This document shows, piece by piece, positions 16,324 to 43,198 of a stretch of 43,911 bases of DNA. The DNA is taken from assembly GCA_022792555.1 (NCBI GenBank), contig JAAWBF010000008.1, positions 1-43,911 of the forward strand, read 5' to 3'. A program made the translations under genes and the position numbers. This DNA is from Oscillospiraceae bacterium (GTDB lineage Bacteria; Bacillota; Clostridia; Oscillospirales; Oscillospiraceae). The notes beneath the pieces were generated by a model. The model was not told where the DNA came from, searched no databases, and saw nothing but the letters and a program-made list of their open reading frames with translations. Numbering within the stretch: the first letter of the stretch is position 1; each line of letters starts with the position of its first letter.

Positions 16324-16467
16324 GAACCTGTATTTATAACTGACGCCAGCACATTTGCTTGACGCTGCGAAGGCAAATTTTCGCAGGAATCCTTACAAGA
16401 AAATTTAATGCAGAGCGGCGGGAACTAGGCCCGTCCAGACGGCGCTTGAGATTGTGAATACAGGTTC
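16324..16467. mobile_element. 144-bp MITE-like element in a gene leader
   Basis: Ends in inverted repeats GAACCTGTATTTATAAC and, on the other strand, GAACCTGTATTCACAAT. It is flanked by a 3-bp duplication TAA (16321-16323 and 16468-16470). It has no ORF and an internal hairpin (CTGCGAA...TTCGCAG). This is the structure of a non-autonomous DNA transposon. The TNA-type duplication and ends starting GA would suit an IS5-like transposase, but that is inference. It lies between promoter and start codon of the next gene. Confidence 0.75.
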
Positions 16468-18908: not shown

Positions 18909-19025
18909 GATGCACTTCCCTACAATTGATGTGTTTTCCCCGTCGTACATGCCGCTGCGGCAACTTTTTAACATAAACTAGCAAGAATTCTCCCGTCTCT
19001 ATAGGCAGTGAGATGAATAGCGCCA

Positions 19026-20407: not shown

Positions 20408-20864
20408 CCCATAACTAATAACCAAGATCAGTCTCTGCTTCCCCGCCCTAGGGGTGGGGACAGACTGCCGAAAAGCCTCGCAGAGTTCGTGCCCGCAGGC
20501 GCGAAAAAAGTCAAATTCGTTTTCCCCGGCGGCGTGTACGGCGGGGAAAACACATCTCGGCCCGCAGGTGTGCGTCCTGTACGCCAGAAGCGGACAGAGC
20601 GTGCATGCAGTCGGGCCGTAGCTTAACTCGAAAAAGTGCTTGTCACTTTTTCGACACGCTCGGAAACATTATTGTTTTTCAACTGTATTGACTAAAATAC
20701 GAAGTGGTTCCCTCCCCGAAGGCACAGGGGGAGGGAACCATTTTCTTTCGTTTCTGGTCAGGATTTCGTAAGAAAATTGACGGTTGGTTTTCCAAAACGC
20801 CGGGTTCTTTTCTGCTAAACTCAAAAGGAATACAGAGATAAGGAAAAGAATGGGGGCAGTATCC
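20408..20864. other. palindrome-rich intergenic region lysA-vanG
   Basis: No gene. At least four hairpins: CAGTCT...AGACTG around CCCC/GGGG (about 20430-20467, tail ACAGACTGCC), GTTTTCCCCG...GCGGGGAAAAC (20519-20551), TCGAAAAAGTG/CACTTTTTCGA (20628-20654) and TGGTTCCCTCCCC/GGGGGAGGGAACCA (20705-20740, then TTTTC; terminator-like). Several match palindromes elsewhere in the window. I found no clean promoter for the downstream vanG-type gene; TTGACG at 20777 lacks a good partner -10. Confidence 0.6.
20705..20746 (+). terminator. terminator-like hairpin before vanG
   Basis: Stem TGGTTCCCTCCCC / GGGGGAGGGAACCA with a loop of about 9 nt, followed by TTTTCTTT. Could end lysA read-through or attenuate the vanG-vanT transcript. 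Confidence 0.6.
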
Positions 20865-28924: not shown

Positions 28925-29638
<714 letters not shown>

Positions 29639-29673: not shown

Positions 29674-29681
29674 AGACGTTA

Positions 29682-29841
29682 GAGCCTGTTCAGTATCTCA
29701 ATGTGTGCGGATTATCGGAAGATTTTTTGCCTTCCAAGGCAAAAAATCACAGAAATACTTTGTGTATTTCAAGGTTTTTTAACGCCGTCAGGGCGGAAAA
29801 TTCACCGTCAAGACGTGCACAGGGAGATGCTGAACAGGCTC
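29682..29841. mobile_element. 160-bp MITE-like element at a stop codon
   Basis: Terminal repeats GAGCCTGTTCAGTATCTC and, on the other strand, GAGCCTGTTCAGCATCTC (17 of 18). They are flanked by the duplication TTA (29679-29681 and 29842-29844). No ORF. Internal hairpins GATTTTTTGCCTT/AAGGCAAAAAATC and GAAATAC/GTATTTC. The right-hand TTA is the complement of the TAA stop of the transglutaminase gene, so the element abuts that stop codon. Confidence 0.8.
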
Positions 29842-32106
29842 TTAGTATAATCCATAGCCATAGCGGAAGAGGAGCCGGCGCGGCGGGGGGAGCTTGGCGT
29901 CGATCTCCGCAGCCTGGGTGTGAACCCAAGAGAGGATGGCGTCCAGCTCCTCCGGGGTGAGGGTATGCTGGCTGAAGGCGGCTTTTTGGGCGAGCTCCTG
30001 GAGATGGTCGGGACAGACGCCGCCCCAGGGCAGGAGGGCCTGGAGATACTGGTAGGCGGCGATGGCGGCCCGATTGGGGTCGGTGTTGGAAAATTGTCTG
30101 ATCCTGCGCCTACGGGCCAGAGCACGGCGCAGGGGGAGCCCAGCAATACAGGCCAGAAGAGCCAGCGGAATGAGCCACAGCAGGCGGCTGGGATCTACCT
30201 GACCCAGTCCGCCGGCCTGGGGGGTGGGAGAGGGGGTGGGCGGAGCAGAGGTTCCCGGTGTGGAGGTGGGGGCCACTTGAGCAGAGGGGGCAGGGGTGGC
30301 CTCCGGCGTGGGGGAGGGATTGCCGCTCTCCCCTGCGATTGGGGTCAGATCCACAGGATACCAGCCGTAGCCGTCCAGATAGACCTCGGTCCAGGCGTGG
30401 GCGGCGGAGTCCAGGACATCCACCCGTCCAGAGGTAGGAATGTCGGTCATATAGCCGCTGACATACCGGGCGGGGTAGCCGAACATCCGAAAGAGGAGGG
30501 TGGAGAAGGTGGCATAGTGCATGCAGTAACCCTGCTTGCTCTCATTGAGGAAGTAGTCCAAAAAGTCCGCCTCCTCTGGGGTACGGGGGGTGTCCTGGCT
30601 GTAGGTGGTGGTGCTGGACAGACATGCCTGAAAAAACTGAACAAGAAAAACCAAATCTCGGACGGGCTGGGGGAGATTGCTGTCCTCCGGTTCGACCGCG
30701 AATAGAGCGGGATTTTCATGGGTGATGCGGTACAGCCAGCCTAAAATCGTCTCCCGATCCGCCTCAGAGATGCTGGAGTAGTTCTGACGGGCGAAATTCC
30801 GGTATATCTGTTCAGCCTGGGCGGCCTGACCGGTCAGAGGGGTAAACGTGCCGTCCAGCAGCCCGTCCGGCTTGTAGTAAACGGTGTGGGTCTGAATACT
30901 CCGGTCCCGCGCCAGGTAGCTGTCATAGACGAATTGCGCCCCCCGGACCTGTTCGGGGGTGGTGACAAGCTGATAGGGGGTGTAGACACAGCCTCCGGGG
31001 GCGTTTACCACTTCAACGGTGATCGGGTGGTAGGGGGAGCCGGGGTTGGTGAGGGAGGGAAAATTCAAGGGCTGATACCCTAAAAGGGGGTCGTCGCCTT
31101 CCGCTTGAAACAACGGGAGATAGGCGTCCTCGGCCAGGGGCTCCCAGCCAGAGCCGGTGTAGGTCCCGGCGGCGTGGCCCCGCAGATAGAGTTTTCCCCG
31201 CACCTCGCTCTGAACCCGGAGCATGGTCCGCCCGTTGAAGTGGAGGGGACCCGCGTTGGACAGATCCACCGATTGGGATCCTCCCGCGGCAGTAAAGTCC
31301 AGGAGCTTGGGTCCGGCAAAGCCGCCGGCGCCGGAAAACCAGGCGCCCAGATCGCCGCTCCAGAGGAGCAGACGGTCCAGCGCGTCCACGGCCCAGCGGG
31401 GCTGCTGATACTGAGCCTGGGGGAGGGCCGCCGTTAGAATTAAGAGGAGCAGTCCGGTGGCGGGAAGGGTAATCAGGGCCAGCTTTGCGCCCCCTGTCCG
31501 GTCCTGCCGGGCGGCCAGGGAGGGGAGCAGGAGGGTACACCACCCGGCGATTAACAGTATGAGGGGGAACCAGGCGGGGGTGATGGTCAGACACAGGGCG
31601 GGAATCAAGATGGGAAAGGTGAGCCAGAAGGCCAGCCAGACAGAGCGCACCCGGCAGACGGCCCACCCAAGCAGGAAGGCCAGGGCGGCGGCCAACGCGC
31701 CCAGATAGAGGGTGACAGCCTGGAGCCACTCCTGGCGGGAGCGCACGGCAAGGGGATAGATGGTCTCCAAGAAGGAGAAATCCTGGGCGAACCGGTTGAC
31801 CAGGGTACAGCGGACGGACACCTCTCCCAAGCTGAGATAGGGCCACAGCCGCCACACGGCCAGGCCGCACAGGGGGAGCAGCACCCCCAGCGCTGCCAGA
31901 CAGTGCCTGCCCCTGGGCAGGGAGAAGACGGTCAAAAAGACCAGGGCTGTGATCAGGCAGGCGGCCAGCAGGGGGTAGGTATGGGCCTCAATCTGAAATG
32001 CCGAGATAAAGGAGAACAGGGCGCCGCACAGCAGGACCAGCAGGACCAGCCCGTCAGCCAGGAGGATTGCAGGGGTTCGCCGCAGGGGCGGGCGGGATTT
32101 TTTCAT
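29842..32106 (-). CDS. membrane transglutaminase-like protein (TgpA type)
   Basis: 754 aa. About six to seven N-terminal membrane helices (20-235), an extracytoplasmic region, a transglutaminase core (about 470-600) with Cys in SKQGYCMHYATFSTLLFR, His in AAHAWTEVYLDG and Asp in WYPVDLTP, a Pro/Ser/Thr-rich linker (about 605-650), a further membrane helix (LLWLIPLALLACIAGL) and a cytoplasmic tail. The triad is complete, so it may be an active cross-linking or peptidase-like enzyme; the substrate is unknown. ATG 32106 overlaps the DUF58 stop (ATGA). Third gene of the moxR-DUF58-tgpA operon. A MITE-like element begins right at its stop codon. Confidence 0.88.
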   Translation of the reverse strand: MKKSRPPLRRTPAILLADGLVLLVLLCGALFSFISAFQIEAHTYPLLAACLITALVFLTVFSLPRGRHCLAALGVLLPLCGLAVWRLWPYLSLGEVSVRCTLVNRFAQDFSFLETIYPLAVRSRQEWLQAVTLYLGALAAALAFLLGWAVCRVRSVWLAFWLTFPILIPALCLTITPAWFPLILLIAGWCTLLLPSLAARQDRTGGAKLALITLPATGLLLLILTAALPQAQYQQPRWAVDALDRLLLWSGDLGAWFSGAGGFAGPKLLDFTAAGGSQSVDLSNAGPLHFNGRTMLRVQSEVRGKLYLRGHAAGTYTGSGWEPLAEDAYLPLFQAEGDDPLLGYQPLNFPSLTNPGSPYHPITVEVVNAPGGCVYTPYQLVTTPEQVRGAQFVYDSYLARDRSIQTHTVYYKPDGLLDGTFTPLTGQAAQAEQIYRNFARQNYSSISEADRETILGWLYRITHENPALFAVEPEDSNLPQPVRDLVFLVQFFQACLSSTTTYSQDTPRTPEEADFLDYFLNESKQGYCMHYATFSTLLFRMFGYPARYVSGYMTDIPTSGRVDVLDSAAHAWTEVYLDGYGWYPVDLTPIAGESGNPSPTPEATPAPSAQVAPTSTPGTSAPPTPSPTPQAGGLGQVDPSRLLWLIPLALLACIAGLPLRRALARRRRIRQFSNTDPNRAAIAAYQYLQALLPWGGVCPDHLQELAQKAAFSQHTLTPEELDAILSWVHTQAAEIDAKLPPPRRLLFRYGYGLY

Positions 32107-43055: not shown

Positions 43056-43088
43056 GTATTCCCCCTCCCCTTCGGGGAGGGGGAATAC
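43056..43088 (+). terminator. strong palindrome ending the rimP-ribF operon
   Basis: Perfect 15-bp stem GTATTCCCCCTCCCC / GGGGAGGGGGAATAC with a 3-nt loop, 4 nt after the ribF stop. It lacks a U-tract. A related, less perfect copy follows at 43100-43128. Confidence 0.65.
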
Positions 43089-43181
43089 GGATAGACTACC
43101 TCCCCCGCCCCTTCGGGAAGGGGGAATACGACAGACTGCCATAAGCGCTAAATTCCCCCGCCCGTATGGGCGGGGGAATTT
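43089..43181. repeat. tandem palindromes downstream of ribF
   Basis: After the first palindrome comes ATAGACTACC, then TCCCCCGCCCC/GGAAGGGGGA, then ACAGACTGCC (43131-43140), then a perfect 14-bp stem AAATTCCCCCGCCC-GTAT-GGGCGGGGGAATTT (43150-43181). The palindrome plus AGACT(A/G)CC unit is repeated in tandem. Confidence 0.75.
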
Positions 43182-43198
43182 GTTTATGCCGTATGTGC

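Follow-up and report, generated by a model that had tools for sequence, protein, structure and literature searches.

A probable IS1031-type MITE in the stop codon of a tgpA-like gene carries a predicted strand-specific fold also seen in MITEs whose ends differ

Results

Genes and features at the tgpA locus

The window, i.e. the whole stretch of 43,911 nucleotides of Oscillospiraceae bacterium contig JAAWBF010000008.1 analysed here, contains on its minus strand a gene for a TgpA-like protein with TgpA_N and Transglut_core domains. Ahead of this gene (hereafter tgpA) lie a DUF58 gene and a gene for a MoxR-type AAA protein; a resolvase gene follows it, with a terminator-like hairpin standing between tgpA and the resolvase gene. 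The relevant features are the following.

29579-29625, minus strand: terminator-like hairpin downstream of tgpA
29679-29681: left target-site duplication, TTA
29682-29841, plus strand (the strand with the more stable RNA fold): MITE of 160 bp
29682-29699, plus strand: left terminal inverted repeat, GAGCCTGTTCAGTATCTC
29719-29806, plus strand: structured core, limits approximate, common to MITEs with other terminal repeats
29752-29770, plus strand: apical hairpin of the core, GAAATAC TTTGT GTATTTC
29824-29841, minus strand: right terminal inverted repeat, GAGCCTGTTCAGCATCTC as read on that strand
29842-29844: right target-site duplication, TTA, which is the TAA stop of tgpA on the minus strand
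29842-32106, minus strand: tgpA-like gene; start uncertain, longest open reading frame to 32238
16324-16467, plus strand: second member of the superfamily, 144 bp, ends GAACCTGTATT, target-site duplication TAA on both sides

The outermost 12 nucleotides of the 160-bp element are GAGCCTGTTCAG (29682-29693) and CTGAACAGGCTC (29830-29841), and without mismatch GAGCCTGTTCAG occurs at only two places in the window, the two ends of this element. A repeat search returned the element as an inverted repeat of 51 nucleotides, 73% complementary, spanning 29681-29842. RNA folding gave z = -12.2 for its plus strand and z = -9.4 for the minus strand including the flanking triplets. Terminal inverted repeats, a target-site duplication, small size and the lack of a transposase gene in the list of open reading frames are all properties of a MITE. 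According to the preliminary description, a MITE-like element had inserted precisely in the stop codon of tgpA, and this holds: the element is flanked by TTA, and the right copy is the in-frame TAA.

The 144-bp MITE lies between a recJ-like gene and a gene for a beta-eliminating lyase, and is probably the element that was counted as the first one in the preliminary description. It is matched at 54.4 bits by the covariance model R1 described below. Two further repeats were seen elsewhere in the window, a 36-nucleotide inverted repeat (86% complementary; 18928-18963 and 20521-20556) flanking a decarboxylase gene (PF02784/PF00278) and a hairpin-like repeat of 30 nucleotides present three times within 43060-43182 (TCCCCC...GGGGGAATACG).

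Copies, target rule and class of the element

The MITE is dispersed in its own genome, with 27 blastn matches (a number that counts the query and reverse-strand matches) and 43 matches to the covariance model; copies are fewer than these matches, as a single copy may have been matched on both strands. Two near-full-length sister copies in the same genome are 86-87% identical. Pairs of family-type ends with an identical T-N-A on both sides delimit 45 two-sided elements, of which 38 measure 160-162 bp. Boundaries of the kind proposed for the window element thus recur in many copies, contrary to the refuting outcome named in the preliminary description. To these come 37 one-sided insertions with TNA at contig ends, one of which (L210) is probably the end of an autonomous IS. 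The 45 elements were drawn from 78 inverted-repeat pairs; the other 33 lack a TNA duplication, many of them being chance pairs, but some (L118, L148, L151) being genuine copies in which one triplet has changed. The target preference reads TC-TNA-GA, with C adjoining the triplet in 79 and T before that C in 70 of 126 flanks. An end-pattern search matched 23 of 400 genomes of the family, of which, judged by reading, 13 carry genuine elements with ends of this type or of a sister type, and 10 have chance matches in coding sequence. Many contigs of genome G030 (e.g. L248-L276) start or stop inside a copy of the element, and the repeat seems to break this assembly.

A scan of viral contigs with a 17-base end returned 20 stretches. 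One of them, L196, has both ends 868 bp apart with TTA on either side, and these ends are nearly those of the window MITE. It contains two overlapping open reading frames with DUF4096 and DDE_Tnp_1 domains, for both of which the best NCBIfam model is IS5 family transposase, the first scoring below the cut-off and the second just above it. Four further stretches have one such end with T-N-A, some being cut by the contig end. Fragments related to the first reading frame of L196 (OrfA) were found in G348 (90%) and in G030 (21 residues, at a contig end). The genome that harbours the window, 85.8% complete, has neither a PF01609 match nor a relative of L196 OrfA, and seven PF01609 matches in four of seven genomes have no window-type ends in their loci.

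Because of the TNA duplication, the sister copies of 86-87% identity and the 868-bp IS5 element with nearly the same ends, the window element can most likely be classed as an IS1031-type MITE (IS5 family), the subgroup being assigned from ends, duplication and Pfam/NCBIfam models. An IS5-type transposase would then move it in trans.

The stop codon of tgpA and the C termini of its homologues

The reading frame of tgpA closes with GGA TTA TAC TAA, the TAA being positions 29842-29844. In an alignment covering all 27 distinct homologue loci, 17 proteins end at the same column as the window protein, among them nine of the ten loci newly added from the best family matches, and 21 end within one residue of it. 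The remaining six end 2, 3, 4, 5 and 22 residues later and 3 residues earlier; in all, ten homologues end at another column. A terminator-like hairpin is seen by eye at most about 60 nucleotides from the stop codon in many of the homologues; at the window gene the MITE stands between the stop codon and the downstream hairpin, which would be tgpA's own terminator.

An empty site was not found at the nucleotide level: the genomes covered include no second member of the genus, and among 250 genomes of the family the closest TgpA is 44% identical in protein sequence. In two loci from uncultured Pseudoflavonifractor MAGs the TgpA homologues reach 33-40%.

How often stop codons are hit

Read on one of its two strands, every T-N-A triplet gives TAA or TGA. 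Among 76 insertions outside genes, the duplicated triplet is an in-frame TAA or TGA stop in 14, with 10.1 expected (P 0.052; with flank weights again 10.1, P 0.035). If five TAG stops completed by the first G of the element are included, a stop is kept at the boundary in 19 of the 76, with 11.2 expected (P 0.001) or, flank-weighted, 12.3 (P 0.0025). In the first 40 elements 9 of 34 insertions were at a stop, as compared with 4.2 expected (P 0.006). Expectations were drawn from nearby TNA sites and genes were called with a simple home-made codon-usage caller; sites inside genes, left out of these counts, numbered 6 of 40 in the first set and 6 of 82 in the larger one. Further in-frame stop insertions were called in the same genome at L016, L018 and L027. 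The one at L027 (1485-1520 of G000:C116) is a 36-bp remnant, barely more than the pair of terminal repeats. It is flanked by TGA on either side and occupies the in-frame TGA that ends a called gene.

Two things make stop-codon insertions common: T-N-A always contains a stop triplet in one of its two readings, and most insertions within genes are lost. The excess over expectation in the counts that include TAG, and in the first 40 elements, could suggest a further, active preference for stop codons or 3' ends of genes on the part of the transposase or the element. We consider this unlikely: the excess is small for in-frame TAA and TGA alone, copies within one genome are not independent, the gene calls are home-made, and selection against insertion near promoters would produce the same pattern. 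We read the stop insertions as the outcome of the TNA rule and of tolerance, with an extra preference that is weak at most.

A predicted conserved fold inside elements with different ends

MAFFT aligned 58 element rows end to end despite several end types, and 37 non-redundant elements were picked from them by hand (one of the 58 rows repeats the window element). This alignment, A1, has 35 internal pairs that lie outside the terminal repeats. They are paired in 88.1% of cells, and 27 of the 35 have changed on both sides. The covariation score is 0.507, as against 0.204 in shuffles that do not keep relatedness and 0.08-0.13 when the pairing is slid. RNA folding favours the same strand in all 37 copies, by 20 kcal/mol on average, and with DNA parameters the same strand is favoured in 36 of 37, by 7.7. 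Internal G.U pairs outnumber A.C pairs 168 to 32, mostly owing to six pairs; outside these six, G.U and A.C occupy 49 and 27 cells, in 18 and 17 of 29 pairs, respectively. The unpaired stretches CAAGG, GCA and AACGCAG are conserved in place. With respect to the gene the structured strand has no orientation bias: among the 13 stop insertions that are two-sided and 150 bp or longer, it is in the mRNA in 4 cases and the other strand in 9. Rfam gave no match at gathering score in the window, and for the MITE itself only miRNA families below their gathering scores.

Covariance model R1 matches 26 of 60 genomes of the order at E <= 0.001. Of its matches, 43 lie in the window's own genome, where 49 of 505 candidates were scored, and others lie in eight further families of the order. 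At E <= 1e-6 it matches 26 of 118 genomes of the class; both counts of genomes include the own one. Over 22 other loci with 191,093 bases in total it scores 13.2 bits at best (E 0.31). The matches carry dissimilar end sequences. Of 78 matches, 64 were used, the 14 left out being reverse-strand, partial or overlapping matches, the window element and L390. At the boundaries drawn by the model a duplication flanks 30 of these 64 rows (TA in 16, TNA in 11, and TTAG, CTAG and AA in one each), and none is seen there in the other 34. The 32 elements not contained in A1, aligned alone, have 50 pairs, paired in 88.4% of cells and with double changes in 48, at a G.U to A.C ratio of 100 to 42. For 15 class-wide elements, 27 pairs are paired in 90.8%, 23 with double changes, at a ratio of 36 to 4. 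The R1-matched strand is the more stable one in 64 of 64 rows and in 19 of 20 class-wide places, which were picked by hand from the list of R1 matches; since R1 chose both elements and strand, sets found with it lean towards the fold.

Two variants were seen. At L348-L351 (G039, from another family of the order) only the structured core, positions 39-125 of the model, is matched, near contig ends. A sister type at L009 (1460-1619) and L120 (1501-1662) has the ends GAGTCTG/GAGCCTG..TTTGAAAAC and is flanked by CTA and TAG, and its target looks like CTAG or TA rather than TNA.

Discussion

We propose that the TAA stop codon of tgpA already existed when a non-autonomous, 160-bp element of the IS1031 type (IS5 family) inserted into it. 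A 3-bp staggered cut at TNA would have led to duplication of the triplet, the gene-side TTA would keep serving as the stop, and the change would be confined to the region outside the reading frame, where the sequence following the stop moved 163 bp away. Read-through mRNA of tgpA would carry the less stable strand of the MITE. We hold this account, with an unchanged protein, to be very probable; its pre-insertion allele and an unaffected protein in vivo are inferred. Speaking against it are the own genome's lack of PF01609 matches and OrfA relatives, the failure to find an empty site at the nucleotide level in the genomes covered, the ten homologues that end at another column, and the 33 inverted-repeat pairs without a TNA duplication.

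As the target duplication reads TAA in frame, TAA must have stood there before the insertion. The preliminary description had suggested that the duplication restored or provided the stop codon; the duplicated triplet does keep a stop, but this stop was not provided by the insertion. It had also left open whether the original C terminus was the same or longer, and here the proposed alignment of TgpA C termini favours the former, given the 17 of 27 homologues with the same end. Truncation of a longer TgpA by a stop that arose with the insertion is thus highly improbable, even though such elements do carry stops at their border (TAA, or TAG via the first G) and some homologues run on, five of the 27 by 2 to 22 residues and one by a single residue. 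A longer original C terminus is rejected on the grounds of the duplicated in-frame TAA and the homologue C termini, and the insertion most likely left the TgpA protein unchanged. The very stable predicted hairpin of the MITE might suggest a role as transcription terminator for tgpA. This, too, is improbable, if less so than truncation: a terminator scan found no terminator-like site inside the MITE and a strong one at 29579-29625, and the stable strand is in the minority in the mRNAs of genes with a two-sided stop insertion.

While the insertion mechanism is ordinary, the surprise is the conserved strand-specific fold across MITE types, which the aligned sequences predict for elements with different ends. 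The fold may act as RNA, and our best guess is that the core is a structured RNA cargo. The main competing explanation holds that palindrome correction between the arms and shared descent, rather than selection on RNA or single strands, keep the covarying fold. Template switching can homogenise long inverted repeats, all copies have common ancestry, and outside the six G.U-rich pairs the numbers of G.U and A.C are closer. Against palindrome correction speak the conserved unpaired stretches, which keep their place. Moreover, simulated drift that kept the palindrome gave strand differences of -5.5 to -8.8 kcal/mol (sd 6-7) when run to 60% identity, with 30-42% of the runs below -10 kcal/mol (55% when run to 70%), as compared with a mean of -20 and 34 of 37 copies below -10 for the real elements of A1. 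We regard this explanation as possible, though the less probable side of the question. About as tentative is the broader idea that the core is a mobile structured RNA of Clostridia, in which one strand-specific fold of roughly 100-160 nucleotides would be combined with many dissimilar ends and would not be tied to a single target rule (TNA, TA, perhaps CTAG/TTAG), the cargo being conserved while ends are exchanged.

The Correia/NEMIS elements of Neisseria differ from the window MITE in their ends and target rule. They are described as MITEs of about 107 and 155 bp (PMC2229807). ISLrh, a member of the IS1031 subgroup of the IS5 family, is reported to have TNA 3-bp repeats, a frameshifted transposase and a length of 857 bp (PMC12016507). 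By our own count its published ends, GAACCTGTCTAGTATCT, agree with the left end of the window MITE at 14 of 17 positions (PMC12016507); L196 resembles it in its two overlapping reading frames, whereas the window MITE lacks a transposase. BOX, RUP and SPRITE of Streptococcus pneumoniae are likewise short repeats present in many copies, for which extensive RNA structure is predicted, and RUP is thought to be moved in trans by IS630-Spn1 (PMC3049150, PMC2229807). They occur in other hosts, and the target of RUP is TA; transcription of BOX has been demonstrated (PMC3049150, PMC2229807), whereas the present family is known from its sequence. MITEAba12 is reported to be of constant length (90% of copies 113 bp), with ISAba12 as the proposed mover in trans; unlike the window MITE it has 9-bp duplications, and no covarying core is described in the available part of that report (PMC6382973). 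MITE transcripts that form stable stem-loops are known in general (PMC10969869). No description of a clostridial MITE family of the present kind was found in searches of an open-access library.

An element that duplicates T-N-A always copies a stop triplet on one strand and can therefore occupy a stop codon without cost to the protein. If one covarying fold persists across many genera while the ends change, it would be the inside of these elements, not the ends, that is under selection. If true, gut Clostridia would have an additional class of structured RNAs that are mobile.
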